A DNA stretch of 64,000 nucleotides, taken from contig JABWDB010000034.1 in NCBI GenBank assembly GCA_019614645.1, positions 2,108,001 through 2,172,000 on the forward strand, written 5' to 3'. The position numbers and the translations under genes were made by a program. Positions 1,291 to 54,122 of this stretch are shown piece after piece (position 1 is the first letter of the stretch; the number at the start of each line of letters is the position of its first letter). Source of the DNA: Stratiolaelaps scimitus. Its lineage: Eukaryota; Arthropoda; Arachnida; Mesostigmata; Laelapidae. The notes beneath the pieces are model-generated. The model did no database searches and was not told the origin of the DNA. It worked only from the letters and a program-made list of their open reading frames with translations.

Positions 1291-1333
1291 TACTCACCTG
1301 GAAAAGCGAAAATAACGAAAGAGAGGGGGTCAG
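1291..1333 (-). other. Candidate recursive splice site (3' splice site fused to 5' splice site)
   Basis: Read on the minus strand, this has a branch-point-like CTGAC (branch A at 1330), then a pyrimidine tract (17 of the 20 bases before CAG are C or T), then CAG at 1300-1298, followed at once by GTGAGTA at 1297-1291. A 3' splice site joined directly to a near-consensus 5' splice site is the known form of a ratchet point or zero-length exon in long Drosophila introns; related sites occur in vertebrates. The branch-to-AG distance of about 32 nt is normal. No reading frame is needed for it to work. It would be the last of three such sites in the direction of transcription. It could instead be a chance match, or the start of an ordinary exon that happens to begin GTGAGT. 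Confidence 0.6.
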
Positions 1334-2086
1334 CTTCGCTATCATATCAGCTTCACTCGATACGTGCATATACATGCATTCGTCTATGACCGCAAATGAA
1401 TGTCCTGCTGGAACAGCTCGAGAAAGTCTGCGTGTGTGAGCCGATGTGTACCGATGTTACCGTCGTTGAAAGTGTTAGCGTACCTGCTGGGTGCTCGCCG
1501 AACTCATAACTGCGATTGGGCACATTCGACTGAGCAACAAGCGTCGCGTCAACTGTCACCCTATGTATGACATAATAGCTAGAGTTGCAGCAGAACCAGC
1601 TGCAGCAGCAGCAACTAAAGTTCGTGGTTTTTATACCGCTCACCGACGCCACTGGCTGAAGAGCGATGAAGAGTGTTCTACGCAAGGCTGAGCAGGGACC
1701 CTCAGCTAAATGGGTTGGTATCGCTTCGCACGGTACGGCGCGCAACGGATTGCGTCTCCACCTGTGATAAATGGTTTCGAAAAGCGGCCGGCTCGTGGAA
1801 ACGCATCATAGTAACGCGGGCACTGTGGCTAGTTCTGCGGATAGGTAAGCGGCAAGTAGACAGTGAGGCCGGACGGCCACCAGGCGTAAGAGCTCGTTCA
1901 AGGCTGAGCGTGGTTTTGCCTGGCTTCGTCTGAGGGTCGAAATGACTTCGCCCTATGATGCTCTCGCGTGCCTTGCGCCTCCTGGACTCCGCACTCCATC
2001 TCTCTACGTATCTGCTCTATTGATATTAACCGAAGTGCGAAGTCCATTAAGTTGAGATTGCTACCGCTCTCCCAAACGCCCAAACG

Positions 2087-2114
2087 CCCAACCCCCCCAC
2101 CCCCCCAGCCCCCC
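2087..2114 (-). other. Strong G-quadruplex motif (minus strand)
   Basis: The minus strand carries G6, G7, G7 and G3 tracts separated by loops of 2, 1 and 2 nt. Such short loops give very stable quadruplexes in vitro. If the region is transcribed from the minus strand the motif would be in the RNA. No gene feature is anchored to it. Confidence 0.8.
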
Positions 2115-2417
2115 AGCCGCGTTCTCTAACGCTGTTTTCGACGAGGCACTTTCGCCTCCGCTTCCCGCGGCCGCGCGCCTGAACGCCCGCGAGCCCGCCC
2201 CGGCTGAGCGGCTTCGCCGCCACCGCATTTCCCTCTCTGTCTACTCGCCGTCCCCCTGAATGTAGTGGCAGCAACAGCAGCCTCTGCAGAATTGCCCAGC
2301 ATGCAATACAGTGCTAGTAGCTACTACCGCATCACGCGCACTGCCTAGCCTGGCCCCCACGCATCCCCATCATCGGCAGTGCAGTCATTCGCTGATCCCG
2401 ATATTTCTTTCCGATCG

Positions 2418-3107
2418 CTACGACGTCCTAGCTCGCGGCCGCACGTTCGCCTCGCCCCCGGGGGCTGCGAGTCGAGACGGGACGCGCAAGGCAGCGCCAT
2501 CCGCTGCCATTGCGGACCGCGAGGGAATCATGACAAATAGAAATAGTGACTTAGTTGCTCCCTGCGGCCTTCGCACGGGGATGGAGGCCCGGCTCCAACT
2601 CCAGCCGCTTTTCCCGCTACCAAGCGAAGGTCCCTCGCTCCCAGTTCGCGCCTCGGCATCAACGATGCGTTCACAAGAGGCGGAGCGCTGAGTTGGGCCT
2701 AGTGTGTCCTGGTGTTCGCTAACGTACACTTGCGGCCAGCCGAGCATAGTTCTCCGGCGGCGGCGGTTATGGCGGAACGGGAACTCCGCACCGCCGGTCC
2801 CATGCATCGGTGGGAAGTCTAGGTTGGAGGCAGGCAGCTCTGAGTAGTAGGACGTCGGGCTAGGCCGAGGCCGTGGCCTGATGGGTAGTCCTCCTGCGTC
2901 GCTCGCCACTGCAGCTGAATTGCTGCCTTCCATCCGCAACTCGCTAACGCTGCTTCGTGCTGGCGACGCCGCAAGGTTCTGGCCATAGGATTGCCACCGC
3001 TGGCATTTCAGCCGTCCTGCTGTGCGAACCGCAGCATCGAGGAGGTTGCTGGCCGCGCCACGTTTTTTTGCTAGCGACTGGCAACATTGCAGTGCTGGAA
3101 TTGCCAA
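2418..3107 (-). other. Open frame of 229 codons, unrecognised
   Basis: The frame has a fairly balanced composition, with an internal Arg-rich patch (RRRRR, at about residues 115-120) and many Ser and Pro, such as a disordered region might have. No domain, signal peptide or membrane span is evident, and I see no supporting splice sites. It could be an exon of a minus-strand gene, or chance. Confidence 0.12.
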
Positions 3108-3165
3108 GTAATCAGAGCAACAACGGCGGTGGCGGCGACGGCGACAGCAGTTGGGAGATTGTTAC

Positions 3166-4005
3166 TCACGCACCGCAACTCACGGACAAGAGGAGGCAGA
3201 GAGGGTGATGTGGTGCAGCAGCAGCAGCAGCGGCGGCGGTGGCTCGAGATGGAATCAAGATACAGACGTATGGTCTCGCAAAACAAAGCTGCGCGAACGA
3301 GACCACAGTGAGAAGTGGTATCTCGCGCTGCCTCGCGGTGGGGACACCGCAGCACATGGCGTTGTTGGCGCGATTGTGCGCGACAGACGTTCCGCCTGTC
3401 GTTCGTCTCATCTCCATATTTATGTCGCACGTTCGGCAAAACGGGTGGAGACCTCCTCTGTGCCACGTCGGCGTCCCAACACGCCAATCGTTCACACACT
3501 GATGCGTCCGGCGAGTGCGTCCGCATCCAGCCAATCGCCCACAGCCGACAGCGGGTGACTCGCCGACGCCGATGGCAAGCATCGGTGGCCGACGTCCGGG
3601 ATCCCGATTCGCTGGACGACAGAGCTTGATCGCTGGCCGGAGCCACAGCGGCCTAAGGGATGAGCAAGGGACGGGGTCAGGAGAGACAAGACAGCCGGCA
3701 GTGTCTACGAGGGGAGGCGACGACGTGGGTTTGGCCAAGCAGACACCGGAGAAACGTACACAGTCCAGCGGGGGCGGCCTTCTCGTGCAAACACGCTGAG
3801 AGACAGCGGAATGGACCAGCGTTGGCTCGTGGTCCGAGGTCCACGAGCGGACAAACATGAGCGAGTCGGTTCGTAACATTCTCAGATGGCCATAGCGACT
3901 CATACTCGTTGACACCCGTGCGTCGGAACGAGACTTTGGGTAAAGAGTTGCTTTGGATAAAACGGAATGGAAGAATGGGCTGAGCACCGCCAAAAAGGGG
4001 ACCAA
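3166..4005 (-). other. Longest open frame in the window; unrecognised, probably not a gene
   Basis: An open frame of 279 codons that I match to no family. The amino-acid mix is rich in Arg, Cys, Ser and Pro and ends in an Ala run encoded by the (GCA)n tract at 3215. At this GC content a frame of about 200-280 codons is expected by chance once in a window of this size. Two GTGAGT motifs near its 3' end on the minus strand could be 5' splice sites, but no good 3' splice site marks a start. It overlaps other frames of similar length. Confidence 0.1.
3215..3239. repeat. (GCA)n(CGG)n compound microsatellite
   Basis: About five GCA units run directly into three CGG units. Confidence 0.93.
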
Positions 4006-4453
4006 ACCTGGCCGTCGTCGTGAGCTCCATTTGGCGTCGCGGCTTCGCTTTTGCCGACGCCTGGTTGTCTTCTCCGCCGATGAGCGTCTATGTTAGCACC
4101 GGGCCGACCACCCCAACTACTCCGTCTCATGGCCTCCCCGTTATTTGCCTTCTCTGTCGGGAATCGTCTGTCTTTTCCCGGGCCCTCCATGGGATCGTGC
4201 AGTGTCCTCATTGGGTCGAGACCAGAACGGCGGACGGTGCTCCCTCCGCGGACGGCATTGTGCGTTTGTGTGCACAACTCGACGTGTGTCTGTGTATGTG
4301 AGCAGATGAGCGACAAGCATCATCGGAGAGGGTTGAGCCCAACTAGTGAACAGCCATCGAGATAACGCGCTTCTCGTGCCAGTGTTTGATTTATGCGCCT
4401 CGCTGATTTGGAACAGAAGATGAAACAGCAGCGGAAGAAGACAACGATGATGT

Positions 4454-4476
4454 CGCCGCCGCCGCCGCCGCCGCCG
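4454..4476. repeat. (CGC)n microsatellite
   Basis: Seven to eight CCG-type units in a row. Confidence 0.93.
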
Positions 4477-5543
4477 TCGCGCTCGAATCTCGTCGCCTCA
4501 ACGGAGAGCCCCTTTAAGATTACATCTGTTGTCCTAAACAGGACACAGAGACGAAGATCTCTGGTGTGGGCAACAGATGTGCAGAGGCCCTTCATACAGG
4601 CCCCACGAGCGGAGTAGGCCAGCCTCCAGTCCTGCCGAGCTATCGCAGTTAGGCTCAACCTCACTGCTGTGCCGTCCGCCCACGGGCCGCTCCGCCGACC
4701 GGTGGAGCGGCGAGACCATCGCCTCGCGAACGTCGGCAACACAATATAAGTGAAGCATACGTATAGCTAGAACTAGAGTTGTATTAAATACAATACAATG
4801 GCTACACGGTGAAGTATAGTCGCATTCACCGATTCATTCGTTCGAAGCGAATGTGGTACACTGCTGTACACGATACAGCATAGATAGAAATGATTTCCTT
4901 GGCTGCCTTGTGTGTACATACACACATCGCGAACCGCATATGCTTACCAGGCGAATTGAACACGGTGGGAAGCTTGACGATAGAGAAATTTCTCAGCCAC
5001 AAGCCTGGCCGGCCTCCTTAATGGGAACTGCCGCCCCACTTGGCTGGTTCAGCCGACAAGATTTGTGCAGTCGTCTCAAGACAAGAAGCGATCGTCCAAA
5101 ATCGCTGCTACACGCTGACGCTCTCACTGTGTGCAGTCGCTTTTGCTTAGTCTCGCGTTCGCTCTCACGCTCCTAGTTATAATAAAATCCCTACCTGCTC
5201 GCTGGTGCTAGCCTGCCCGTGCCGCTGTCCCGGCCCGACCACTAGCGCTCTCATCACCGAAGAGTACCTTCTCGTTTTAGTGAAATATCGGCATTAATTA
5301 TTCGAGCAAACTTCCTTACACAGTCCTTGAGGGCTCGCTCACTCAGGCAGCGCTCGGCCCCCGAGCCGGCTGTCTGCGCCTGGCCCATTTTAGCTCTGGC
5401 GGGCCGGCCGGGTCTTCTCGGAGGTTTTGGGGCGCCGGGAAGGTGCGGGGGGCAGGCAAGCTCCTCGGTGGGTTGGTAAGAGTCGGGGCGAGCGTGGTTG
5501 GCGTGACCACCAGCTCGTCTGTTTAGCCGGTAATTGCAGTAAA

Positions 5544-5562
5544 GCAGCAGCAGCAGCAGCAG
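5544..5562. repeat. (GCA)6 microsatellite
   Basis: Six pure GCA/CAG units. Confidence 0.95.
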
Positions 5563-7182
5563 CTTTGAACAAGTCAGCCAACGAGTGAGGCGAGGGCGCG
5601 TGTCAGTGATAACGTAATAGGAACCCGGACTCTGCGCAGAAAACGAGAAGGCGCACGAATCTAGTATCTTCGCCCAGGCCATAATACTATCGCATGGACG
5701 ACGACATCGTCGGCGGAGACGGCGACGACGTGCGCCAGTTCGTCTTTATTGAAAAAAGGAGAAATAGCTGCTTTACGTTCTAGTTCCGCTGCATACGCAT
5801 AGCTTCGTGCACGAGCCGGCACGACCTGCCCATGGGCTCACGATACGTTGTCACACGTACGTGCAACCGATGCTGCCTGAACAGGAAGCGCCCTGGTGAA
5901 ACCGTCACCGGTCCGCTCTTCTTGGCCACTACGAAGAGTGGTCTAGATCGACGCTAACACAAACTGGCTCCAGCAACCAGCTTCGTTCACTGTTCGAGCA
6001 GTGCGTCGTTTGTATAGTTTGTGCTTATATGCGTACCGCGCATGTAAAAACTTCCCTCTGTATTCTAACATCGAGAGAGGAGAGACTTACTGGGTGGGCA
6101 TGAGTCAACTCCCGATGCTGATACTCGACTACCATCTTCGAAACTACCATGTCTTCTTATATTGTATATAGATATATCCATATATCCGCCTCCATATCTA
6201 TTCTTCTATCTATCAGCGGGGGGTGTCTGTGTGTGTGTATGTGTGTTTTATTTCAATTTTCGTGCTACCATTCCTTAAATCAATGGCTATGTAGAAAGGA
6301 GAGTCGTCGTGGCTGCCTGAGGCTGCCGATAGATAAATCAAGAATTTCCATAAAGGTATAGGGCCAGGCTGGGTTTGTTCTCATCGAGGATAAGAGTTTC
6401 CGCAGAGGGAGCCGAGCCACGCGGGGGGAGTAGCTCCATGACCTTGTGAGTCTTACTGAGGGGGAGGTTATCGCTTCTAGAGTGACGAGCCGGAGGGTAT
6501 ATGGGGTCTGTCTGGGGTAGTACGCGAAAATGTCGAGGAGTGAGAGGATACGGCCCAAACTCCTCTTACTGCCTATCTTGTGTAGCCTGTAATCTGTCCG
6601 TCGGCGGGTTCTTCCAGCCTGAACGCTCCAGGCCAGGGCTGGCACTGTCCGCTAGCCCGATTTGCGCTACTGCCTCCTCCTGCGCCGCCACGTCGTCTCG
6701 ATCCGAACAACCTACGCTTGCTTGGTCGGCCGTCGGGTAGCTGGCCGAGTCCGAGGTTTCAGCTCGTGTAGGCTGGCAGGCCCAGGCAGGACGACGCAAG
6801 TGTTCTCTATTCTGTTCGGCCCATTGCGCTGCAGGCGAGCCAGCGCGCCGAGGAGGCGCGGAGGTAGAGGACAGCATCAGCGTGAAACGAAGAACCCTTC
6901 ATCTCCCACGACTACTATTACTGCTATGACTGCTCCTAGCACGACTACTGCCAGTCGGGTACCATGCGTACGGCGTAATAGTGCTGTATTGCCACTACGA
7001 TATCATAGGAGGAGGACAAGGACGACGACGACGACGGCGGCCATTCTCCTCTGCCCTAGTCAACCAGCGAAAGCGATAGCTTGCGTGCTGTGGAAGAAGG
7101 CCTGGAACGAACGGGATCGCCGAAAGGACACGAAGAAGGAAACGAACTTTGTCGCCGTTACGCTACCACCGTTCGCGTCTCA

Positions 7183-7203
7183 GCCGCCGCCGCCGCCGCC
7201 GGC
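7183..7203. repeat. (CCG)n microsatellite
   Basis: About seven CCG units, 30 bp upstream of an alternating CG tract. Confidence 0.93.
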
Positions 7204-7231
7204 GCTGGCCCACCGTCGGTGGGTTGGAACT

Positions 7232-7247
7232 CGCGCGCGCGCGCGCG
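7232..7247. repeat. (CG)8 alternating purine-pyrimidine tract
   Basis: Sixteen bases of pure CG alternation, the sequence type most prone to left-handed Z-DNA. Similar tracts occur at 21089-21101 and 45140-45153. Confidence 0.95.
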
Positions 7248-8045
7248 AGGCGAAGGACGGCCGCGTCTTCAGCCAAACAGCGACTTCGGACTGTGCAGCG
7301 ACTGTTCCCTCGGCTCGGAAACCCGTCGTCACGATAGAGCTAGCACACCAGCCGACTTCAAATGACATATGAGCGCGGAGCAGATGTAGGCGAGCCGGGG
7401 AATGTCACTGAGGAGAGGCCACGAGCGAACGATGAAATGGCGTTCTGGAGTTTCCTAACGTTCGCTCCCATCTTCTGCACAACCTTGACAAGGTTGGCCC
7501 CGTTCGTAGGCCAGCGACGAGCTGAGCCAATGCGAGCAGGTTACCAGCAGCAGGGCAGGTGGGCCAGAGGTCGCCCTTATTCTAAACATTGAGAAATTTA
7601 TTTACACTCAGAGAGAGAGAGAGGCTCAGCGTGCCAGCGATTTGCCGTGCCCTTCCTTGAGGTTGACTTGCACCACGAATGAACTAGACAGCGGCGAGTA
7701 GATCCAATATGAAACAGCTTGCAACAGACGCATTGCTGCCAGCTACCAGCGAGGTTACGGGATCTGGATGACGAGAAAACCCTCGCGAGCCCGGTGCGCA
7801 ATTCCGGAGGCAATGTTTCGTGGGGCTTCGTGGAGCAATGCAGCAGTCACGGCGTGTGCGCCGAATTGTCGACGAATGCAGACGAATTGAGGAGAGACCC
7901 AGGAAGAGATCGAATTCGTTTTGCGAAATGGGGGGTGCAGTGCGACAATGGTTTAGCAATACGGATTAGCTATGCGTCATGTGCACATGCTAATATGATC
8001 CGTGAATATGGCAATAATATGGCAATGTCTGTTCGCTCCCCGTGT

Positions 8046-8079
8046 TAATATATATATATATATATATATAAATATATAT
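8046..8079. repeat. (TA)n microsatellite
   Basis: A TA array with one AA interruption near 8071. Confidence 0.95.
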
Positions 8080-8511
8080 CATACTTATATGTGGAGACTT
8101 TGGGACTTCTTATGGAACCTGTATAGCAGCTTGGTAGTGGATCGAAAAAATCAGGTTCAGACTTTCTCCATTCATGGCGTATACATCGTTAACACCACCG
8201 ACGAGTGGTTTACACTTGTGTTTCAAGTGTATTCTTCTTATCCCATTCTAAGTGCTCCGCCGTAACATTCGAACACAAATCGTCCCTCTGACCTTTTAAG
8301 GGAAAGAAACTACTGGAAGGCCGTCATGCATGAGTGCACGAAGCTGAACACTGCCATTTCGCCTTGCCACTCATGGATTTCAGGAGCCTGCACCCCTAGC
8401 ACATATGCCCACGGTGTAGGGGTTAGGCTCTCGCTCTCGCACTGGCGGTGTAAAAATATCACAGCATCAGCGAGCACAACACTTACTTGCAAGCACCGTG
8501 AATCAGCTGTA

Positions 8512-8528
8512 GCAGCAGCAGCAGCAGC
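8512..8528. repeat. (GCA)5-6 microsatellite
   Basis: A pure GCA tract. It lies about 25 bp upstream, on the minus strand, of a CAA/GTAAGT splice-donor-like site at 8481-8489; the minus frame through both is open for about 60 codons and reads as an Ala run. Confidence 0.93.
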
Positions 8529-9605
8529 CGTCGCAGGAGCCAACCACCAGAGCGGACGACCAGTCTCCAAAGATGGGAACCCGGCACTCAGCCAAGGAGC
8601 GGGCGACAGCGGCGGTAACGCTTGCGGTAATGCAAAAACTATTTGTGTTTGCGCCTCTTGTCCTCGAGGTCCGGAACGTCAGGAGCCAACAGAGAGACGG
8701 CATGGTTTCCACACTGTCAGAGAGAGGGGTTTGCCAGCTTAGGCTGCTGTACCCGGCCAATATGGCTAGTGGCGTGGCGCCCGCAGAGAAACACCACCCC
8801 CCGCCCCCCCGCACCCCGTCGATCCAAGGGGAAGATGCGGACGGAGAGGGGTCGAGTCATGCCACAGACGCACTATTTCACGCTGCCCGCTGTAATGTAT
8901 GGCATAGTATGTCGCAATGCACACCGATGCCTTCCAGTGTTCGCTGGACGGAGCGGTGAGCGCTCGTTGTCAGCGAGCAAGCCTCACCCCCGACGATGCT
9001 CTGCCGGTCTATCTAGCGATTGAGGCGGATACGGGGAAGCGAGCTACGCCACAGTCGCTGCTTGGTGTATTTCAGCTTTCTGTTCGGCATTCGTTGCTGT
9101 TGTCACACCCGTCTTAAATGATATATTCAACGCGGAGCTGCCGAACGAGCGTTTTTGCCTGGTACGCTGTGTGCTTGCGTTTGTTCCAGCAAGGGAGCGT
9201 AGCGGCGTGGGCCAGGCGAATGCCTTCTACAACTGCAGGGGTCTGGCCGCGACTCGCGCCTCGCTTATAGTTGCTTAGCCCTATCATCGTCGACGTTCGG
9301 CTCTCAGGTCAGCCAGCAGCCTTTGTTTGTCTGCTATTAGCAAGTAGCAACTCGCGTCAATTGCCACCGCCGGCATTCCTACTGGCGGCTGAGAGCGGGG
9401 GTGGCATCGGCCCGCGAGATCGAGCCGTCTAGGAGCCAGCCCTGCCTGGATGACCATAGCTGAATGCGTCTGACTTCTCCCCGCCTTATACCGCCAGTGG
9501 CTGTATCCCCCGTGCGACGGATGCCCCATTTCGCTTGCCCGTCTTGCAACACGCATTGGCTGCATTCCCGTTCTGTTTCATAGAGTTGTTGTCCACACGA
9601 ACATA

Positions 9606-9629
9606 AACACACACACACACACACACACA
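9606..9629. repeat. (AC)12 microsatellite
   Basis: Pure CA/TG dinucleotide array. Confidence 0.95.
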
Positions 9630-9996
9630 TTTGTAATTTGGGGAAAATGGGCTCGCCGGGGTTGGCGCGCCCCATTCTGTCTGACTGGCTGGCTGGCGCC
9701 GAGCTCTGGCCAGGGGAGCCCACCAGGCGAAATGGAGAACAAGGGCACAATCGTTGGTGGTGGCAACAACTCGGGGACGAGACTCATGGGAGGAGATGAA
9801 GCAACATGAGCAGGAGGCTGTTGCAACCGAACTGTCACTACCAACCGGCTGAGAGGGGCAGCTGCCTAGCAAAGAGCGCTGGTGGTGGCAGTGGTGCTAA
9901 GCTCTCGGCTGGGCAGTCGGCATTAGCAGGGGAAGGCCAGGGACGGCGCCGCAACAGGGTTAGTGCGTGGAGGGGAAGGCGGCACAAGGAACAAGG

Positions 9997-10017
9997 AATA
10001 ATAATAATAATAATAAT
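9997..10017. repeat. (AAT)7 microsatellite
   Basis: Seven AAT units. Confidence 0.95.
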
Positions 10018-10666
10018 TCCCTAATGGCAAAGAATGGCATATTTTTGCTAAAGGACAACAACGAGGACGAAAGCAGCAAGAGTCGCAAGTTGAGGGTCGG
10101 CGACTGTCGGCAGCAAGCGGACGCTGCTGGAGGACCTCAACGGTCAGTGGGCTTGCCGAAGAAGCCAGCCGACCGGCTCACAGTGAGAGAGCAAGGGATC
10201 GTGTGGGGCGCTGTCCAGCTTGAGGAGCGTACAGTAATCGACACGGCAGGCGCGTTGGCCGAATAACATGCGGAATCAGTGCTACACATGACGACGGCTA
10301 CGACGACGACTGCTACTGCTTGGAGTGGAAATAAGCGGCATCGTTGTGCTGGATACTGCCGACATTGTTCCGTGCTGTTCTCACGGGCGCCTCTCTGCCC
10401 GCCCTATGCAGAGCTCTCCGTCCCATACAGACCCCAGAAGATTCTCTCGTGTTAGACCAGTAGAGTATCCATGCCGGGACGTACCACGCATGGAGTTGCC
10501 TCTTAGTTGTGCCTAGGCCCCTTCCCACCACCACCGGCATCTGAAAGCGGCTCCGACATTCGCAACAGTCTGCCCCGACTTACGGATCCTACCCAGATCC
10601 CCATTTTGCCTTCGAGAGCTGCCACCTCCCGCCAGCAGTCCCAGCAGATAGCAGCGGCTGGGGGGG

Positions 10667-10668
<2 letters not shown>

Positions 10669-10713
<45 letters not shown>
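10669..10713. repeat. (CGG)15 microsatellite
   Basis: Fifteen uninterrupted CGG units directly follow a run of nine G (10660-10668). This is the longest pure CGG tract in the window. On the minus strand, CGCAA followed by GTAAGC at the right edge gives a possible 5' splice site reading into the CCG repeat. Read as protein it would give poly-Arg, poly-Gly or poly-Ala, so the frames across it mean little. Confidence 0.97.
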
Positions 10714-11871
10714 GCTTACTTGCGACGGAGCGCAATTAAATAAATTACATTGTAATGAAATTCAACTGCAGTGATGGCTGCGTCTGCCTGTCTACGCCGT
10801 TTCGTGTGAGAGGGCCCCGTGTGTGTATATGGGCGCTTTCGCTTGCTCAGCCGTCGTAGTCACCGTCGGCCGCTGCCACCTAAATCGACCCCGACCATCC
10901 GACATCACCACATCGGTGCTCGGACCGACCGGCCGGCTGACTGGCTGGCTGACCGACACCCATTGGCACACACAGGCAGGCGGCTGCCACCGGCAGCTGC
11001 TCAGCAGTGAGAGATCGTAATGGAATTAGACGAGATCCCGGGCACGCGGCCCATCAAGCTAAAGCCGGCAGGCAGCCCAGCGGAAACGGCGGCCACAGGC
11101 GGTACAGGATGACGGCAACGACGACGATGAGGCGGGCCGGGGGCTTGGGTGGTGAGGGTCGAAAAGGGGGGACATGCGAATCCGCTTTTACTTACTTAAC
11201 GATTACGGTTCCTCGGGTTGACGTGTCCTGTTGACGCGACGGTGTGTGTATATAGCCTCATTTAGCGCATGACGATCAAGGGGAGAACCACGCTGGCACA
11301 AGGGGAGAATTTGCTCGCTCCCATAAATAGTACACATCATGGCGGACACAGCCTGAGACTGTCCATGTCGTTCTTGCGTTTGTGTCGACGATCGTTCCTC
11401 GGACGCGAACAGAGGCGTAGCGAGCAATCCGGAAGAACAATGAGGATAGAAAAACACTGATTTTACAGGGACACAAGCCAACTCTCTCTCAGACAGTGGC
11501 TGTATAAAACCCTTCAATGTGGCGGAGTCTACGTGCAGCAGCAGGTACGCTTTGTACTGAATCAAATAACATTCTATTGTATAACTAACGATCAAGCGGC
11601 TGATTGTATTTTGTACCTCGAGCCTTTTGTCCTGCTGTACGCTGTCAGCGCCTTCGGACGCTGGAGAGAGTATAAGATCGGAATGCGCCATATCATACGT
11701 CGCCGAGCCCATATGGCTCCGCGGGCGTCTACGATATGAGCATTCGCAGTGATATTTGTATAGGAAAAGTTGGTCAGCCCACAAGGAACACGACGGGAAG
11801 GTAGAGGTAAAGCTTTATTTTGGTTTATTGAAGGAACCGCAATTTCACAGCTGCTTAAGCTCTCTCGTGCG

Positions 11872-11957
11872 TGTGTCACGCAGCGGGGCTCGAACCCGCC
11901 GCCTCTGGTTTTCCAGACAGCCAGAGACCACTTAGCCGTCCAAGCCACCGCGCTGAC
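11872..11957 (-). ncRNA. tRNA-like element, degenerate (tRNA pseudogene or tRNA-derived SINE head)
   Basis: On the minus strand GCGGG-TTCGAGC-CCCGC forms a perfect T arm and contains an RNA polymerase III B box (GGTTCGAGCCC). A box-A-like TGGCTTGGACGG lies at the right distance upstream. An anticodon-arm-like stem CTCTGG/CCAGAG is present, but its loop is too large (12 nt). In the acceptor stem only the four outer pairs (GTCA/TGAC) match. A functional tRNA should fold better, so this is more likely a tRNA pseudogene or the 5' head of a SINE. On the 3' side, minus-strand AATAAA-containing A-rich sequence at about 11808-11832 could be a SINE tail. Confidence 0.45.
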
Positions 11958-12526
11958 GGAAGGCAACGGTCGTCCGGGCGGCTGCGACCCGTCACTCGCC
12001 ATTCCTCTCTCGCTTGACTTGAACTCGAATCACCCCTGGCAGTGGCGACGCCTTCTGACGATACGCGATGATCTCGTCACTTGTTTCGTTCTACTCGCGA
12101 CTTTGTCGTCGTCCGAAACTGAGGGCAAAATTTCGACCTGTTCCTTTACTCATCCTTTTTGAACGACCCCGAACGGACGCCAGCCGCTCGAACTCTCCGC
12201 TCACGTCACAGCCAACTCGGCTGGCGTTCGTCCACGCCTGCTTAGTTACTGGTTAGCTTTAAGTGAGAACAGAGCACACGACAGAGCCCGAAAACTCTCG
12301 CTGGAACTAGAGTGGTGTCAGGTCTTTAGGTGGGCATTACATACCTGGCTCGTATCACTGCCTCGCCAGTATCAGTGTATTATAATTATAATAATAATAG
12401 TGTAATGAGGTAAACTTGGTGGTTGAACATTTTCACTGGGTCTGGGTGGGGTGGGCGTGCGCGCTTGGCAATTGCAATGCAGTGAAACACGTGAGATACA
12501 CCGTGCTCAGCGACGGTATTAGCCAA

Positions 12527-12540
12527 CCCCCCCCCCCCCC
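12527..12540. repeat. Poly-C tract (14 C)
   Basis: Homopolymer of 14 C. G or C runs of 10-15 recur at 12635-12644, 22292-22306, 26498-26510, 31269-31280, 49106-49118 and 61792-61806. Confidence 0.95.
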
Positions 12541-14464: not shown

Positions 14465-14486
14465 TACATATATATATATATATATG
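14465..14486. repeat. (AT)n microsatellite
   Basis: Pure AT array at the left edge of the AT-rich LINE island. Confidence 0.95.
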
Positions 14487-14959
14487 AGAGAGTAGAATAA
14501 TACAGTGTACGAAGTACAGTTGGCATCAGTGTTGTTCGTATATTTAAACGCCCGCCTATATAGCGTTTCCGACGCTTAGATATTTCAAATATACACCATA
14601 TCGTTTCTAAGAATACGAACAAACAAAAGTTCTCCTTTTAGCCCTTCGTTGAGCATTTACAAGTATAAAGAAACAAACGCTTATAAGGCGATGCATGAAG
14701 TAAATTTGAAGGTTTACATTCCTGTTCGACCGTTAACAATCACAGCAAACTGTATCGGAATAAAGGCAGATGGGACAAAAAAATGTCGCAGTACGCCTTT
14801 TGCTCGCAGCTAGATATGATGGTCTAGCAAGAGGAGAACGCCGATGGCATGTCACTAATAAAGTGCTAGTGAGGAAGGGACCCACATCCTCCTCCATATC
14901 CCGTCTGAGGTTCGACGGCTCAGTAATCTCTGATACCTCTTCTCGTCCTGTGCCGATAT

Positions 14960-17944: not shown

Positions 17945-17947
<3 letters not shown>

Positions 17948-17979: not shown

Positions 17980-17984
<5 letters not shown>

Positions 17985-40067: not shown

Positions 40068-40091
40068 CAGAGAGAGAGAGAGGAGAGAGAG
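40068..40091. repeat. (AG)n microsatellite
   Basis: AG array with a GG interruption. Confidence 0.93.
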
Positions 40092-43013: not shown

Positions 43014-43101
43014 AGCCGCCGCCGACGCCGCCGCCGACGCCGCCGGCGACGCCGCCGCCGACGCCGCCGCCTGCTGCAGCAGCAGCAGCAGCAGCAGCAC
43101 C
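43014..43101. repeat. Compound (GCCGCCGAC)n minisatellite and (CAG)n tract
   Basis: About 60 bp of a 9-bp-periodic GCC/GAC array (43014-43073) runs into CAG repeats (about 43076-43101). In one plus frame it reads as Ala-Ala-Ala-Asp units and in others as poly-Arg; such long open frames on both strands come from the repeat and do not show a gene. Confidence 0.93.
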
Positions 43102-43604
43102 GGCAAGCGAGGGATGGGACAGCGGCCAGCTCCTCGAAGTTTCTCATCGAACGCCATCGGCTGCCGGGTGACGGCTGCCGCCAGCCCCCCCTACCGCGCG
43201 TACAGTGGACCCCGACTTGCGGTCGCTATGAAGAGTCGAGCTTTGTAGCCCCTCCAGGAGCTCGTGCGGGCTCCTTCAAGTTGACACATGTTTGTTCGTT
43301 ATTCATGCGCAGTCGAGTCGGAGCCACGAGAGGTTGTCTGTGGTAGCTGCTATTGCGGCTGATTCTGCTGCTGCTGCTGCTGTTCCTTCTGCGCCAGGGC
43401 GCACGAGAGTAATAATTACAGCCGGCGCTGCAGCTTCGATGGTGTCGGCCGCACGGTCTGCACGGACACGTCATTATAATAATAACGAGATTGAGACTAC
43501 GAGACTACTACAGTGAAAGCCCGGGCGAGAGTAAGCGCAAGAAGGAGCGCATAAGGGATTCCGGGGGGCGGATACATAACATTATAGTTCAATGACTTGA
43601 GGGT

Positions 43605-43624
43605 GATGCTGCTGCTGCTGCTGC
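43605..43624. repeat. (CTG)6 microsatellite
   Basis: Six CTG units. A second CTG tract of similar length lies at 43366-43384. Confidence 0.94.
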
Positions 43625-45568
43625 TATGGTCGACTTTCTCTCTCTCTCGTTCCCTCGCACTGCGGCGGCTTTACGTGTCGGCCGACAGACCTACTACGGC
43701 ACCTCACGACACGGCCTCGACAAGGCCTGACATCATTCCCAGGAGAGGGCTCTCGGCAAGCAGGCGCAGCGTCAGATCCAGCAGCCTTGGCCGTACTTGC
43801 CTCATGCCGCTTGAAATGTCCTATACAGCCGTTCTGCCGCGTGTGCTAAGCACTCACCAGCTACAATGGCCGCGGCGCGATATCAAGCGGTGTTTGAAAC
43901 GCCTACCCGCAATGATCTCCCCGGTAGTTGCCACTACGTCGGAATCCCCCTACACACGTACTCAGCTGAGTGGTTTCAGTTCACGTTCGCTCACTCGCCT
44001 TCGGCGGTCCTCACTCAAAGGGACGACATCGTCATCGACGCACAACGGCGCGCCTACATCGCGTACACCTCGCGAAGCTCGAGGCGCGCTGGGGCTACTG
44101 CGGCTCGCCCCATCTACCTGTGCACCAGACGGAAACTGTACTTTGTAAGAGTCTCGCTGCGGCAGATCCTCGACGTAACGCTGCTGCTAGACTAGACTCA
44201 GCTCGCCTCGCGCGTTGCTAGCACTCGATGAAGGAGGATCCCCTCCGAGGAGAATCCCTCCTGTCATTGCTTCCTTGGCCGTAGTACTGCTGAGGTAGAA
44301 CTTGCTCCCAGCACCCTTGTTCTATATTCGTGTACGTTATGTACGTTACAACATACTTCGCCCACTCTCGGTGCGACTCGGGGGGTAGCAGCGCGAAGGT
44401 TCGTATAGCCGATGCGCGTATTCGCGGTTTTCTGAACGAGGGCTCGGCTTCCTCGAGATCTTCGGGGCCTGCTAGGGGGCCTGCTGCCGAAGCCCGCGTC
44501 GGCGGCGGCGGCGGGTAGTCGTACGGACGACCGCCGAGGAAGCCCCCATCGGTCGCGAGCGCAGCCGACGCGTTATCAGGGCGTTCAGCGGTGCGGCGTG
44601 GCTCGGTTCGGCCCGCATGGCGAGCGAGCGGTCGATATTTCGCGCGACCTTCCATTTTTCATCTACGCTACCGCCCGTCATCTCCCCCGAGTCGTCGATG
44701 CATCACTCCCCCAATCACAGGGAAGCAAGCAAGCAAGCCAGCCTCTAGGTCCCAGCCCCGATCCGGAGCCCCTAACGACACCCCTGACGGCCGTGGCTGC
44801 TTCGATCTGCCTCGCCTTCACGTTGTTCTCTATCTACCTCTCGTTGTTTCTCTCGTCGTCTTCTCGTTCGACGTTACACTATTGGAGCCAACCAACCAAC
44901 CAGCCCTGCTCGACGCGCTACCACGGCTCCCGCGCTAGTCCAGCCCTTGTGAGCCTCAGAGGCTCGCTGGCTGGCTGGCTGGCTCGACCGACCGCCCGCC
45001 CGCCTGCCCTTGCTTCGCGCTGCGCCCGCCGCACGTCGTCGCTCGCTCAACGCGCGCTTGTTATTAATGGATTGATTTGCCATGTTAAATACGCACACAT
45101 ACACGTTTCTCTCTCCATCGTTCATCGTATCGAGCAGGACGCGCGCGCGCGCGGCGGCGTCGGCGGCGGCGGCGGCCTCAGCAGCCGTAGAAGCGACGGC
45201 CACATCAAAATTTAATCAGTCGACATATTCCATCAAATCCTGTGAGGCTGGCAGAAGATAGGGAAGTGGCGCGGAATAACGGAACAATGTGTTTATCTAT
45301 TTCGTCGAGTCGCGTTCCGGTGAAGCACAGGGATACACCGACCCGATAATAGAACTGTACCGTATGACTCCGCGGGGGAGGGAGAGTCGCGCCTTTGTTT
45401 GCAAGGAGCGAGCTACGTCAGCGGAAATGTCTATATATGTGCAGCATGCTTCATGGCGGACTTGCCGTATCGCGTCTTCTCGTGGGCATCCTGCGTTTTG
45501 TTCTCTCATTCGAGTCGGATTCGATGGTCTGAATTCTCATTCGAACTGTAGACCAGCCAGGTAGAGAA

Positions 45569-46327
45569 TTGCTGACTGCTTGCATATCGTTGCTACAGCT
45601 TATTAACCGAAGAGACCACAACGCTTTTGCTCAACTGTGGAAACAGGCGAACTCCGTCAAGGACAAGTCTCAAGTCGGCCTGAGGCCTGTTCGTCCTAAA
45701 GATATCATCGTTTGCCTTGTCCGCGGTAAATTGCAGAAAGGGAGGCCAAGCAAGAGGCAGATTTTCACAGTTCCCTACCGTTTCCCTGTGCAACTTACGA
45801 GGACGGGCGGTCGGTCGGCTGTTTTTCTCCATCTTTCCATCGCGGAGAAGTCCCTGCCCTTACCCGCCTCACATGTTCCTCTTCGAGGAGAACGAACACC
45901 GTTGTTCCGGGGCTGTTCCCGTACCTGGCAGGCCACGTCTGCAGCCTCCTGCCGACGCCCCTGCAGGGGTTCTTCGGCTGTCGGCACCGGGCGGCAAGGA
46001 CGACCCCGGAGCAAGCAACCAGCCAACGAGACAGCCATACAGTCAACCAACCGACACGAACTCAGCGAACAAAAACGAACAAAAAGAGAGCCAGAAAAAA
46101 GAGCACCAGAGCGAGAGCGAGAGAGAGACCGAGTACCGTCCGAACGACGAGTGCACGGCCACGCGCTACCGAGCTATCCGACCTGTGCTGCTTCCCCCGG
46201 CTCGGCCCTGGCGCTGCTGTGCGGCCTGTTCAGCGGAGGCCCAGCGACGGTTCCGACCGCACCTGCACCGGTGGAAGCGGGCGGGGACCATCTTTTGAGC
46301 TTTGACTGGCAAGAAAAAAATAGCTAG
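45569..46327 (+). other. Open frame of 252 codons, unrecognised
   Basis: The first 75 codons have a balanced, protein-like mix. The centre and end become Arg, Glu, Ser and Pro rich from purine-rich DNA (an alternating Arg-Glu patch at about residues 185-195). No known domain is visible. The length is near chance expectation. Confidence 0.12.
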
Positions 46328-46420
46328 GAGTTGCGAACGATGGAACGAAACTATGAGGAATAGAGAGCAACGCCGCGCAGCCAGTGCAGCGTTGAGGACT
46401 GCCGTGCCCGCTCTCGTTAG

Positions 46421-46490
46421 AGAGAGAGAGACACAGAGAACGCGAGCGAGCTAGCTAGAGAGAGACACAGAGAACGCGAGCGAGCTAGCG
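46421..46490. repeat. Tandem duplication of a 34-bp unit
   Basis: The unit contains ACACAGAGAACGCGAGCGAG and CTAGC and is repeated twice at exactly 34-bp spacing (the ACACAG motif starts at 46431 and 46465). It is flanked by (AG)n on both sides. The identity of the copies suggests a recent event. Confidence 0.9.
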
Positions 46491-48176
46491 AGAGAGAGAG
46501 ATACAGCAAGAGCATATGGCGAGCCCCACACACAACGAGTGTGGTCCCGTAGCCGGTAGCTGTTACACGCCATGTCGCCACGCCACCATGAGCCGGCGAA
46601 CGAAAACTCGAGGAAAAAGACAGACGCAGCCACGCGCGGTGGAAGACGGACCCCTTCCCTGCTCTCTTCTGCTTGCGGCGACTACGCCGCCGCGGTTCTG
46701 CTACCGCCGCAATGCGAATATAGCAGGTGGTGGTGGTGCTGCTGCTGGTCCTGGCACCGACCAGAAAGCCGACGAAGGCCGCAATATGAACGCAAGCTGG
46801 GTTCCAACGTAGATACTCTACGGACAGGCGCGTAGGGAGAAACACGCAGAAGCAAGGTTTCATACATCATGGCTTGTTCTTCTGCTGCTGCTGCTGTCGT
46901 CGTTGGTGCCGCCATTATCCAGTTGTCTTCTGCCGTAGAGGGACTTTGTGAAATGCAATGAATGGTATGACGATTGCTTGTGGTCGATTACGCTGCGCTC
47001 GTCGCACGCCCGGGCCACCATGCTGGACAACATGTCGTACGTGGCATTGGCGGCTACGGCGGCGCTGGGTACACCTCGTAGCGCTGTGAGCAAATGGACG
47101 GACTCAAGATCAGCGGGGAAGATGAGAGGCAGAAAGTGTATGAGTCACGGGTTGTTGTGTGAAGAGGTTCTGCGTTTGCTTGTGCCGCCATTTGTGCCGC
47201 CGCCCCAATCGTCCCATGGTCCTCGAGCCACTGCAGTGGTGGCTGCTGCTGCTGTTCGTTCCTAAACTGGTTTATTCTCTTACTCGGATAGCGACGACGA
47301 CGACGACGGGCGTTCGCATCGAAACAGAGTCAGCAGGAAGCGAACGGAAAACGAACAACAATTAGAAGCTGAATATCGTGACAGCCAGCCAGCTCCGTGC
47401 CTCTGTTTGAAGAACGCGATATGCCAGGGCGTTTGAGGGACCCCAGATCGCCCAGTGAGGCTGGGACGCTATCGTAGCACTTCGGTAACGCAAGCTAGCC
47501 GAATCTTCATAAGTTTGTTTACCCCGTTATGCGGTCAGAGCGAGGAGCACAGCTCCACCAACTAATTACACTCCAGCGATATTTAGTGGCCAGTAGCCGT
47601 TGTATCGACAGCGTCCATTTCACCGTGTGATTTGCTGCAGGCATATGCGCACGATCATTTCATTTGAGAGGTAGGATCTACCCTCGTCCATCGTCGACCA
47701 CAAAACGTATTCCGCGCATAGGAGTATTCCTGTACTTTTTTTTTGTACGAGCGCACAGCGACGACGCAGCAACAAAACACGTGTCACATCCGTTCGAGCA
47801 GACGTATTCGGTAGACGGCTGCACGCATACGTAAACTCTGAGACTAGCCGAAATGCGGCCGAATCCCGGTGTTACTCGCCATGCAATGTTGAAGCTTAGC
47901 GCGAAACGAGTCGGCCGGCGGTACATCGCAAACATTGACCGGTAGCATGGCACAAGGTGCAATGTGTCGATGCTAGCGAACGGTGTTGTGCGTTCTCACG
48001 AACGCGCAGGACGCGGAACAGGAGCATGAGGATTGCCGCCGGCGCCACCGGCACCGGCCGTAGCCGTCGCCGCAAAGTACAAATTCGCGGTAGAGGCTGC
48101 ATCGCAAGGGAAATGCGCGTATCCGGTCGAATTTGGAAACGGTCAGAGAGGATGGGGGGATCGTTTGCAGGACAGG

Positions 48177-48197
48177 CAGAGAGAGAGAGAGAGAGAT
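48177..48197. repeat. (AG)10 microsatellite
   Basis: Pure AG array. Confidence 0.94.
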
Positions 48198-48281
48198 AGG
48201 TAAGTAGAGAAACATGGAAGTGGTAGTGACTGTCCCACTAGTATAACGGTAGATCAGCCGATAGGCGGATGTGGCGCAGCT

Positions 48282-48818
48282 TTGGCGGTTAGCTCAAGTG
48301 GAGATGGCGGCAGCAGCAGCAGCGGCTGCCGCAGCAGCAGAAGAAGTAGTCGTTGTAGTAGCATCATGCAATGGTATACGACTGCCTACGTGCGCGTGAG
48401 CAGTGCGCTAGACTACAGGAGTGGTTTCCCCTCAAGCGCAACGAGCCTTTATCAGCCGGGGTACGAGCCGGTGCCGGGCGGACGGCGACCGACAGCCAAC
48501 GGCCACGCTCCCTGCAGGCGACACCGCCTACATGCACCGCCCACGCCCATGCTGCAAGGCACGAGAGAGAGGAAGCTGGTTGGAAATCACCACAGCGACC
48601 TGGTCCGTGAGGTGGTTGCCTCTGTATCGCCCTTCGAGGCTGTTTCGTTGGTTGACGATTCGCCGGTTCGACGTGGAGAGGCAAAGCGCACCGCGCGGAG
48701 TGCGCGACAAAGCGAACGCAGGACGGCGATGCTGCTGAGGGAGGCGCGGGCGACTCGAACGGAGAGCGTCTGTTTGAAACCCGGAGATAGATTGAGAATA
48801 GGGGAAGGCCGGGCTTGA
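48282..48818 (+). other. Open frame of 178 codons, unrecognised
   Basis: It begins in a Ser run encoded by an AGC-rich tract, has a balanced middle part and ends in an Arg-rich tail. The opposite strand is equally open and there contains a hydrophobic stretch at about 48870-48980, so the strand cannot be chosen by eye. Confidence 0.1.
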
Positions 48819-49875
48819 GCGAGCGTAGCACTCAGCGGATAAACTCGCGCTGAAGTCGAGGTGAAGCCTTGCGCTGCCGCCAGCGGCAGCAGCAGCAGCA
48901 ATGACGACGACAACGGCAACAGCAAGCGCAGTGGCAGCAGACGAGGCAATAGCGCAGACTAAGAATGGGACTTCGACTCCGCCGATAGTGCCGAGCCGCC
49001 TACCAGGCCTGCTGCAATCAGGACTCATGCCGAGCTGGGCGAAGGCCAAAGCTCATTTGAAATCCTCAGGGAGCTGCTGTGCGGGATCCGCAGATCGCAG
49101 CCAGAGGGGGGGGGGGGGTGTCTGTCCCGGGCCAGTGTAAGGGCAGCTGGACGGACGCCCGCAGGACGCCGGCAGCTGGCTCTTGTGCTAGTGTCTAGTT
49201 CCGCAGTGTCCGGTGATGCGTAAGGATAGCGGCCATTTCGACCAGGATCGGCGGCGCTAGCAGAAAAGGAGCTCGATGAGAGGAAAAAAAGAAAAACGAA
49301 GGAGTGACCGAAAGTAAGTGCATTGTCCGTTCGTTCGTCCGACCGTTCGTCTGTCTGTGAAAGTGTGTCCCACGACCACTGCTCAATCCGTCTACGCGTA
49401 CGTTGAGGCGGTGAGACGAAGTGAAAGTACAACGAGCAGGAGCACTAGCAGTAACAGCAGCAGCAGCACGAAGAAGGCCAAGAACAACGGCGCAATTTAT
49501 TACCTGTTAGCACCCATCCGGGTCGGCCTGGGCCTCCCAGCGTTGCCGCCATCGCCGCGCGACTGCCCCCCAGCCCCCATTGGCGTTGTTCAGCACAGAG
49601 GAGCGCTGGCGGAGATTGGCAAACGGTGGACGCGCGGGAGGCGGCAGAGAAAACGAGAACACGATGAACGAAAAGAAGAAAAGCGGCCGTGGAAGGAACC
49701 AAGCGGTCCAAGGCAGCCAAAGACACCAGGAGCACGAGCAGCGTTAAGGTGACGTCGAGACAGCGCTGTCGGTGGGAAAAGGGATCCGGGCGTTGGTGGT
49801 AGTGAGCAGGGCGCTGCGACGTCTCGCAGGGCTAACCCCCGCAGAAAAGGAGCGGGGTTTCTTAGCAGGGTGAAA

Positions 49876-49918
49876 TGGGGGGAGGAGGTGGTGGGGGGTT
49901 GGGGGCAATGAACGGGGC
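49876..49918 (+). other. G-quadruplex motif
   Basis: G6, then GGAGGTGGT, then G6, G5 and G4 tracts on the plus strand in about 43 bp, in a purine-rich stretch with (AG) character. Confidence 0.6.
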
Positions 49919-50145
49919 GGCGACAGTGCTGAATCGGGCCACCGAACAGCAGTGAGGACTTGGAAAAAAAAACCCTACGAAGAGGGCGCCGTAGGGGGCT
50001 CACCGTAGCGGCAGACAAACGTACACAACGGACAGACGCAGAGAAAGAGGCAAACGCAGGTCCACACCGGGAGCAGCAGGTACACAGTAACACGGCGGTG
50101 GCAGCGCCTCCAACAAACAGGACAACACTGTGTGCGCACGCCGGC

Positions 50146-50160
50146 GGGCGGGCGGGCGGG
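50146..50160 (+). other. Compact G-quadruplex motif (GGGC repeat)
   Basis: Four GGG tracts separated by single C bases, the most compact form of quadruplex motif. It sits in a run of GGGC repeats. Confidence 0.75.
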
Positions 50161-50610
50161 CCGTCGGGCGCTTCGTCGGGCGTTCAGGCCGAAAGGCACA
50201 CAGACAGCCCGCGCCGGCGTGGCCTGACGGCCCGACCCAGACGCCGGCTCGTTTCTGTACGCGCAATCTCTTCAACGATAGTGATAACGGCCTTAACAGC
50301 AGCAGCAGCAAGAGCAAGCAGCAAAGGGAGTCGACGCTGCTGAGAATCTGGCTCGAGCAAGAACAACGAGAGACAGCCGAAGTCCTCGGCCGGCGTTGCC
50401 AGCAGCAGAAGCAACCGTGGCGGCGGCGGCGGCGACGGCGGTGGCGGCTGAAAAAAGCACAATGTGCGATGCGCCCCTGCAACAGGGACTCGCTCCGACT
50501 CAACGTAGAAGCAGGAAGAGCTCGCCGTGCCGGTAATGTGGTGGTAGCGCCTCGCGAGTGGAAACAATAAGAAAAAAAAACAAAGACATATCACCTTCGT
50601 GCTGCCTCTA

Positions 50611-50652
50611 CTGCTGCTGCTGCTGCGGCTGCCGCCGCCGCCGCCGCCGCCG
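50611..50652. repeat. (CTG)5 followed by (CCG)7
   Basis: CTG units to about 50626, then CCG units at 50631-50652. Confidence 0.94.
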
Positions 50653-52468
50653 AGTCAATGCCGCGCAACGCTTGTCGCACGGCCCAAGGGCAGCGGGATG
50701 ACGGCGGGGCCGAGCCGGTTGTGCCTCAAGCGAATGGTAGCGGTGGCGGACGATTTTCAAGGGAACGGCCAGACGAATGAAAGAGGAGTCGGAGTCGGAT
50801 CCAAAGGACGCAGGAGTAGATCCGGGGAGAGAGGAGTACGCAGCGCGTCCCCATTGAAGCGGTGCGCGTCCCTTCAAGCGCTTTCTTGCTTGCTCGTTTA
50901 GATGCTGATGTCTGCGCTGTCGTTTCTGCCGTCGGCTACGATGGCCATGGATCGGGCCACGACGCGGTATCAGCCGAGGACCCTCCTGCCCCGCATCACT
51001 AGCGCGCTCTGTTCCGCGCCGACCCTTCGTGCAGGGCTGTAATAACTGTAATTTATTTTTTGTTGGAAAACAACAATCTTACAATGGCTGCTATAGCAGT
51101 ACATGTCGACGGAGGCAGGAACAACTTTGAGCACCGGCAACAGCAAGCCGGCTATGAGAAGTTTTCGTAATACCTCAGTACACTGGGAGCAATTTAGCTC
51201 ATCTTTCGAAACCGTTCGAACTGCACCGTCGAGGAAAACCGAACCGGCTGCTGGAAGGTTTCAACGAAGCGTCGAAACGAGGGTAAAGTGTGAAGGCATC
51301 ATCGAGGAGAAGTCCTTCTCCTCTACCTGTCAGGGACGCAAACCCAAAATGTGGCCACCACAAGTTCTGCGCCCATTACGAAGTTTACTGCCATAACGTG
51401 CACTCCTACAGCGAGGCACGTTCTAGCCTGCTGCTGCTTCGGCTGCCGCCGCCCTTGCGCCAGCCCCGCCCGAACCGCATGACGACCACCATGACGCTAG
51501 CAGCGCCCTAGTCCGCCCTCAAACCACCTGCCCGGGGCAGTAGCACACTCTTCCGTCGCCGTAATCGGCGTCAGCACTTTCCTTTGCTTTGCATAGAATA
51601 ACGAATCGGGTCGGATCGGGTCGGTCGTCCTCGCCAGGCCAGGTCAGACCGCTGTGTGTGTGTGTGCCTCTGTCGAACGTTCACTGCACAGCAGCAAGCT
51701 CTGCTGGCAGCAAGCACTAGCCGCTGCACCGTCATCTATCCAGGTGTGCGTGTGACCGTGTACGAGAGGCTCGTCGGCCATCTCTATCTACCCTTGCTAT
51801 TGCTGTGCAGTGGCACTGGTGCATCTGCCGTATCCGCTCTCCGCCTCGTTCCACCTCCGACGTACCCGAGCGAAGCGCTGGCCGCTCAGACGCAGTCAAC
51901 TGGACTCTGCTGGCTATCGCCTGCACGCTCCAGGCTCTCGTCGAGTTGAAGTAAATTGAACACCAGCAACGAAGAAGTAGCCTGCCGCTGCGGCAAGACG
52001 CCGTCGCTGGCGTATTTGCTTTTACTAGACTCGGCCTACGAAGCGAAGCGCTCGATTGGGATCCAGGCTCGTGTCCAGGCCCCCGACATCCTCGTTGCCC
52101 CCACGCATTTCTCTGTGTGTGTCGCTATATGCTTCCCTCTTCGATATATAGCCGTATTGGCGGAACATAGTAGCAGTCAGTAGCTGCTCTGTGTCCCTGT
52201 TACACAGACCGTCGACGGGCAAAATGCCCGTAGGGACCAGTGGATCCGGAAGCTGCCAACCTATTCTAGCATCCTACTAACATCGACCAAATAGAGCGCA
52301 TGAGAAAACCATGAGGATGAGAGACTTAGAGAGAGAGTTCGAGGGAGAGAGAGAGAGAGAGGCCTGGCGGAAGAGCTAACGAGAACTAAAGAGAGTTGCC
52401 AGTGGGGGCCAGTGACGCACAGGACGAGAACAGCCATGCCCGCAATGAGACGGACGAGGTCGCAAGCG

Positions 52469-52490
52469 CTGCTGCTGCTGCTGCTGCTGG
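52469..52490. repeat. (CTG)7 microsatellite
   Basis: Seven CTG units followed by GGT units. Confidence 0.95.
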
Positions 52491-52663
52491 TGGTGGTTCT
52501 CCCTGACGTTAGTTCTCTTCGAGGCAGACGTATCGGTGGGATCCGTCAGAGACTGCAGCTGCAGCAGCAGCAGCGGTAGTAGCAACGAGCGCGGGCAATT
52601 TATATACAACAGCTGATAAATATTGCATTAGATATAGGAGCGGATGGCCGAGCTAGGGGACGC

Positions 52664-53464
52664 TTGTGGGTGGTGTGGCAGTCAGTCGAACGAACGAACG
52701 AACGCACAGTTGGCCTGCATCGGCAGGCTCCCGGCAGGCCTGAAATTGAGGTGAACGCTGCGCCGGCGGCAGGCAGCGGCAGGCAGCGGCCGTCGTGGAA
52801 GGCCGACGCTGAAACGATGCAGATGCGAGAGAGACGCAAGGCTCGGACCAGTCGCCCCCGTCGGATCAGGCCGGACGGCGAAGCAGGCCAAGGCAAGGAA
52901 AAAGGAGAAACAATCTATCTCTCGTTCTCTCTCTCTCGCACTTTCCACTCGTTCTCTGGCTCCCCACTCAATATTTTACCTCTCTCAGAGAGTCAAGATC
53001 ATTGTACGTTGAAGATGAACGCGGACGAGAGAGAAGAGTTCGAGGGGGGGTTCAGGAGTGGAGAAGCCGAGGGAAACGAGGAATGGGCACTGAGGCGACG
53101 ACCCGCTCGATGTCGGGGGACCAAACAACCCGAGGCAATGGCAGTGGCTGGTAGCAAGTGCGCCTTTTCCTGGCATCTATCGTCGCCTTCAGTCCGCTCG
53201 CTTGCCTCGGCACGGCGGAGGAGGAGAAGCAGCAGCATACGGCTCATATGGAATTTTAATATCAACAGTCTACCGAGCGCCACATGCTGCGCTGCTCGGT
53301 GCGGCGCGCCCGGCGTTGCCCCAGCCGACGCAGGCATGGTTGTTCGTCTAGACGATGGCGGAGGCGGCGGAGGCGGCGGCGGTGGTTTACAGGGCAGAGC
53401 AAGGCGGTTTGGACTGAGGCAAAGAGGTAAAGCCGACCATAGTATCAGGTTTGCCGGTATCTGA
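52664..53464 (+). other. Open frame of 266 codons, unrecognised
   Basis: The frame contains an acidic patch (ADEREEFEGGFRSGEAEGNEE) at about residues 120-140, an Arg run and a Gly run encoded by GGC repeats near 53358-53390. Composition varies sharply along its length, more like joined repeats than one domain. The length is within chance expectation. No splice or promoter evidence supports it. Confidence 0.13.
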
Positions 53465-54088
53465 AAATAGGGGGGCCGAGAAAAAGGCTAGAAACGCTAT
53501 CCCCAGCAGCTCCGAGCTCGTTGCCCCCTTCGAAGAGGTCCCCGATGTCTGCCCCTTTAGCCAGTTTCGTAGCGCCCCTCGTTGTCTCTCAGAATGAAAC
53601 TGCCTTTCTCTCGGCGATTCCTTTCATCCCTGCATCATCGTAAGCGGCAGCTCCCCCCTATACCATCATTCGCCCTCATTCTTTCTGTTCTCTCGGTTCG
53701 GCAGAAGATCAATCCACTCAATACTAACGTGTTCATGGTCTTTGAGATCGTGTACAAGTCTCGGTAGCAGGAGGCAACGGAGCAAACGAGCACCGCGCGT
53801 GCCATCGCTCGCATCCTCCGAAGGGATCTCAGGGTCGACTTGCCTCGCGTCGACCCCCTGCCGGCAGTCCACCGTCCTCTTACACGTTAAATGATTCCAT
53901 TACATTGGATTCAATCAGGAGCGAGGCAGGAACATGAGTGCTAAGCATGAATACGATGTGCTGCTACTCGACAACTAGCGATAACTCGACTCTCACACGC
54001 ATATTTCAGTTGGAAACCTCTGGAACAGGGGGCGGTGAACGGACACCCTAGCGCTACAAACCGGGAGACGTAATGCTGGCTGAGAGAT

Positions 54089-54122
54089 ACTCACCTGAAA
54101 CAGAACAGCATAAGCAGGTTAG
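54089..54122 (-). other. Candidate recursive splice site (3' splice site fused to 5' splice site)
   Basis: On the minus strand an ideal branch-point pentamer CTAAC (branch A at 54119) lies 24 nt before CAG at 54097-54095, with 15 of the 20 bases before CAG being pyrimidines. GTGAGTATC follows with no intervening base. This is the textbook form of a zero-length exon used in stepwise removal of long introns. It has the best branch point of the three sites in the window and is the first met by a polymerase transcribing the minus strand. Its surroundings are AT-richer and have no convincing coding sequence. Confidence 0.65.

Follow-up and report, generated by a model that had tools for sequence, protein, structure and literature searches.

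The window (the whole stretch of DNA analysed here, 64,000 nt) raised the question of whether three junction-like motifs, all lying on its minus strand, are recursive splice sites and, if so, whether they could belong to a single giant intron that would be removed in steps. The question was approached through the motifs themselves, the content of the DNA between them and what is known of similar sites in other animals.

Joint acceptor and donor motifs on the minus strand

All three copies of CAGGTRAGT in the window (1292-1300, 39081-39089 and 54089-54097) belonged to the minus strand, with the first G of their GT at 1297, 39086 and 54094, respectively (positions that also serve below to name the sites). 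This recount agreed with the first-pass annotation, which had reported three such nonamers on the minus strand and none on the plus strand. The sites were rightly located there; only the positions given for them (1298, 39087 and 54095) correspond to the last base before the GT. In the direction of supposed transcription, the putative ratchet point 1, which would be the earliest transcribed (54085-54140, minus strand), displayed CTAAC (A at 54119), a pyrimidine tract and CAG|GTGAGTATCT, with its GT at 54094. Putative ratchet point 2 (39077-39125, minus strand) was composed of TTAAC (A at 39119), a T-rich tract and CAG|GTAAGTACCT (GT at 39086), and putative ratchet point 3 (1287-1335, minus strand) of CTGAC (A at 1330), a C/T tract and CAG|GTGAGTATCTC (GT at 1297). 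Donor halves were GTGAGT at 54094 and 1297 and GTAAGT at 39086, and the ratchet-point core (Y)nNCAG|GTRAGT was present in all three. On the minus strand, 54084-54097 and 1287-1300 had CAGGTGAGTATCTC in common, a run of 14 identical bases reaching past the core, with no wider similarity. Apart from these three, the window had a single AGGTRAGT, on the plus strand at 48200, where TAG|GTAAGT, the top-scoring donor of that strand, closes an AG repeat and is not preceded by a pyrimidine tract.

Taken without its acceptor half, the nonamer was weak and unremarkable evidence. Its expectation in 60 dinucleotide shuffles was 0.30 on the plus and 0.48 on the minus strand, in keeping with the value of about 0.5 per strand put forward at first pass. 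The acceptor half that had been claimed upstream of every site was indeed observed, with pyrimidine fractions of 0.85 (1297), 0.80 (39086) and 0.75 (54094) in the 20 nt before CAG and with the branch-like pentamers named above, whose adenosines lie where they had been placed. For site 1297, a second pentamer (CTGAT, A at 1347) scored as high as CTGAC, but AG dinucleotides separate it from the site, which makes it less likely as a branch point. AG-free stretches of 74, 52 and 34 nt preceded the three sites, against a median of 7 nt for AG|GT places, of which only 0.6%, 3.4% and 9.7%, respectively, reached such lengths. CTAAC, TTAAC and CTGAC were all contained in their respective AG-free stretches.

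Joint strength was assessed by scoring every AG|GT in the window as both acceptor and donor (n = 322, 160 on the plus and 162 on the minus strand, outermost bases excluded). The weight tables were generic animal consensus tables that may not fit this organism, so exact bits carry little weight, and ranks and the wide gap to the other places count more. Site 39086 reached 25.6 bits, 1297 reached 21.4 and 54094 reached 19.1, whereas the next best of the 322 obtained 11.9 (minus strand, 33474) and the top plus-strand site 11.6. The place scoring 11.9 bits, a weak fourth candidate (TAG|GTAAGA within 33430-33480, minus strand), is probably background. Among the 3697 GT of the minus strand, the donors of 39086, 1297 and 54094 ranked 1, 2 and 3, and their acceptors ranked 1, 4 and 19 among 4076 AG. 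Coincidences between the top 100 donors and the top 100 acceptors numbered four on the minus strand and none on the plus strand. With the top 200 there were five on the plus and four on the minus strand, and the strand difference is therefore confined to the strongest sites. Among the 162 minus-strand AG|GT, the trio of strong acceptors was also the trio of strong donors (Fisher test, 1.4e-6, with cut-offs picked after the sites had been seen; 5.8e-6 to 1.1e-4 at five other cut-off pairs). The 160 plus-strand places displayed no overlap of strong acceptors with strong donors at any cut-off tried.

Could the three sites be mere coincidences of acceptor-like and donor-like sequence in untranscribed DNA? 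The nonamer alone lends this explanation something, since at least three copies, both strands together, turned up in 7 of 100 dinucleotide shuffles. Once the acceptor half was included, however, the expectation dropped to 0.008 per strand for CAG|GTRAGT with a pyrimidine fraction of at least 0.75 (60 shuffles, both strands), against three observed on the minus strand and none on the plus strand. Likewise, sites of at least 19 bits averaged 0.01, 0.00 and 0.02 per simulated strand under Markov models of order 1, 3 and 4 (100 strands each). The simulated maximum, 22.9 bits, exceeded two of the three observed scores, so that a lone strong site may well be due to chance, while three on one strand are unexpected. 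With shuffles, simulations and the donor and acceptor ranks all against it, chance was rejected as the source of the joint motif and is extremely unlikely as an account of the locus: the joint acceptor-donor architecture is far above chance, and on the minus strand only.

The supposed intron and its rivals

The three motifs are thus best read as recursive splice sites, or ratchet points, and very probably belong to a gene transcribed from the minus strand. All three may lie inside one intron on this strand, 52.8 kb or more in length. The first-pass view of the window as largely intron of a large minus-strand gene held in that the sites and their strand fit it and that no minus-strand exon was recognised; a single intron, and actual use of the sites, are what we infer from this.

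Two other origins of the sites were considered and rejected. Were all three carried by one repeat, their surroundings should be related; local alignments among them spanned 20-30 nt and scored 23-30, for a 95% level of 29 between random pairs. The three regions are alike only in splice motif and flank, and therefore are not copies of one repeat. Long coding exons bordering the sites were likewise ruled out by short open frames: those abutting the sites measured at most 159 nt upstream and 99 nt downstream, so the sites are not the ends of long coding exons. An exon of at most 159 nt ending at 1297 is possible in one frame.

More weight was given to the possibility that the recursive sites belong to the same minus-strand gene but are spread over two or more introns, with unrecognised exons between them. 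Exons that are untranslated, that encode no Pfam domain or that have weak splice sites would be missed by the searches made here, and the period-3 signal of the window exceeded that of shuffled sequence (95% level of 2.65 versus 1.66), both of which speak for such exons. Against them, none of the 15 pieces spanning the three minus-strand frames matched Pfam up to E = 1 (the search reported few matches above E of about 0.1), and 27 strong acceptors and 22 strong donors of the minus strand yielded not a single pair that would delimit an internal exon of 25-500 nt with two strong splice sites and an open frame. The same type of search returned one candidate on the plus strand. Moreover, three stretches that were inspected (48.1-49.2, 52.3-53.6 and 42.9-43.7 kb), with six of the 15 highest period-3 peaks listed, carried trinucleotide runs; they were judged to be trinucleotide repeats whose translations are not coding-like. 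Several introns therefore appear unlikely, though less so than the other rivals. With neither exon nor domain found on the minus strand, nothing that was found breaks the supposed intron, as far as these methods reach; as exons with weak splice sites or devoid of a Pfam domain would escape, a single intron is still something that we infer.

A related possibility is that the sites open cassette exons beginning with GTRAGT, expressed or cryptic (RS-exons capable of entering the mRNA, like the Ubx microexons), and that they also serve alternative splicing. In its favour, donor-like T|GTGAGR motifs occurred 98 nt past 54094 and 69 nt past 39086, and in flies a short cryptic exon is described as beginning at the ratchet point, with a donor following the dual site farther on (PMC8605326). 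Yet these T|GTGAGR donors were of only ordinary strength for the window. The best donors 15-150 nt downstream of the three sites scored 5.0, 4.5 and 0.8 bits, the last at 1297, and were equalled by 34%, 42% and 86% of random places (n = 3000), a comparison in which donors of the fly type may be weak or lie farther away. Cassette exons seem quite improbable at these sites. Equally doubtful is the opposite proposal, namely that these are true zero-nucleotide ratchet points whose recognition requires no cryptic exon downstream, the dual site alone then defining steps as long as 37.8 kb; if true, this would be a departure from the RS-exon model of flies. In that model the cryptic RS-exon is about 50 nt long, with variation, and a donor farther downstream is required; that the donors near the present sites were no better than random counts against the recursive-site reading itself. 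The readings with several introns and with cassette exons are both variants within the recursive-site reading and do not exclude it.

Proposed stepwise removal and known ratchet points

Under the preferred reading, that of recursive sites in one minus-strand intron, the flanking exons would lie outside the window, the upstream one beyond position 64000. This upstream exon would be spliced to the AG at 54095, rebuilding a donor (GTGAGT), which at 54094 would in turn be spliced to 39087 and rebuild GTAAGT. The latter, at 39086, would then be joined to 1298, again restoring GTGAGT, and the donor at 1297 would finally be spliced to another ratchet point or to the following exon, located below position 1. 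No trace of the ratchet points would remain in the mature mRNA. Both the use of the sites and this order are proposals. The distances between sites delimit two putative recursive segments on the minus strand, 39087-54094 (15,008 nt) and 1298-39086 (37,789 nt), which matches the lengths of 15.0 and 37.8 kb first announced. The remainder of the supposed intron in the window would amount to no less than 9.9 kb ahead of the first site and 1.3 kb beyond the last.

Drosophila ratchet points (in Ubx, kuz, Bx and several hundred other cases) display the same core, for which PMC2773006 gives the consensus (Y)nNCAG|GTAAGT. They, too, are found in introns of great length, a single one of which can contain several; in kuz, two are described for an intron of roughly 50 kb (PMC8605326). 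Differences were nevertheless observed. Two of the three cores of the window are GTGAGT, and the donors downstream of these putative sites are no better than random. In addition, one segment reaches 37.8 kb, in contrast to the 9-15 kb reported as typical of fly recursive segments (PMC6110457). A step of this length is long by fly standards; either longer steps would be tolerated here or a weaker site would also be used. The place at 33474 is an example of such a site and, if used, would cut the 37.8-kb segment into pieces of 5.6 and 32.2 kb.

Comparable sites were computed in 2009 for large introns of five invertebrates, fly, mosquito, beetle, bee and sea urchin, where Table 2 of PMC2773006 lists 0.5-2.2 RP-sites per 100 kb, versus 0.00-0.12 on the complementary strand. 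The values for intron and complementary strand given in that table are 0.48 and 0.12 in bee, 0.81 and 0.10 in beetle, 1.03 and 0.00 in mosquito, and 0.54 and 0.07 in sea urchin. The motif in the window matched that of the RP-sites of these last four and, as in them, the complementary strand was poorer (three on the minus strand versus none on the plus strand, the sense strand itself being deduced from the sites). Its sites are denser, three in 64 kb or about 4.7 per 100 kb, under scorings that are not identical. Vertebrate recursive sites are described in PMC8605326 as mostly tied to expressed RS-exons, with only nine fully suppressed ones definitively noted there. They share with the present sites an AG|GT junction that rebuilds a donor, whereas a downstream donor is not evident here. 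The sites of the window are a dense but ordinary case of the known ratchet-point kind.

Their interest is twofold. A giant intron and its direction could be proposed from raw sequence in a GC-rich genome, with neither annotation nor RNA at hand. Furthermore, given RNA data from the species, the three sites, one of them with an unusually long step, would make suitable test cases for whether recursive splicing always needs a downstream cryptic exon.

Other features of the window

GC content of the window was 55% and CpG occurred as composition predicts. Polyadenylation-like hexamers gave an inconsistent strand signal (AATAAA, 17 on the plus and 11 on the minus strand; ATTAAA, 11 and 16; AATATA, 24 and 13). 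Searches for tRNA genes and Rfam families in the window returned none at gathering score. Seven matches up to E = 1 were far under the gathering scores, and four of them fell on TA microsatellites.

On the plus strand, two of the 13 pieces compared with Pfam (out of 15, all except two frames of 1-14998) displayed one weak match each, both below the curated cut-offs. One of them was to RVT_1 (reverse transcriptase; about 15092-15427, plus strand, E = 0.0021, below its curated cut-off), in a region that, from its motifs, we presume to be a degraded LINE-like element. The relic contains stops and may reach about 16300; GC over 14001-16000 was 0.48. We take it to be oriented against the supposed minus-strand gene. 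The other, to DUF1990 (21336-21584, plus strand, E = 0.016, below cut-off), lies inside a 167-aa stop-to-stop frame and is probably due to chance.

Short repeats (TA, AG and trinucleotide) were numerous. Judging by the splice signals, the LINE-like relic and the style of the repeats, the DNA may come from an arthropod, perhaps an insect. A tandem repeat with a unit of 34 nt occurred at 46418-46499 (2.4 copies, 93% matches). At 48001-52000, GC content stood at 0.60 and AT skew at 0.18, the maximum among the sixteen 4-kb stretches. This stretch, perhaps a regulatory one, also contained period-3 peaks and runs that were either rich in AG or made of trinucleotides.
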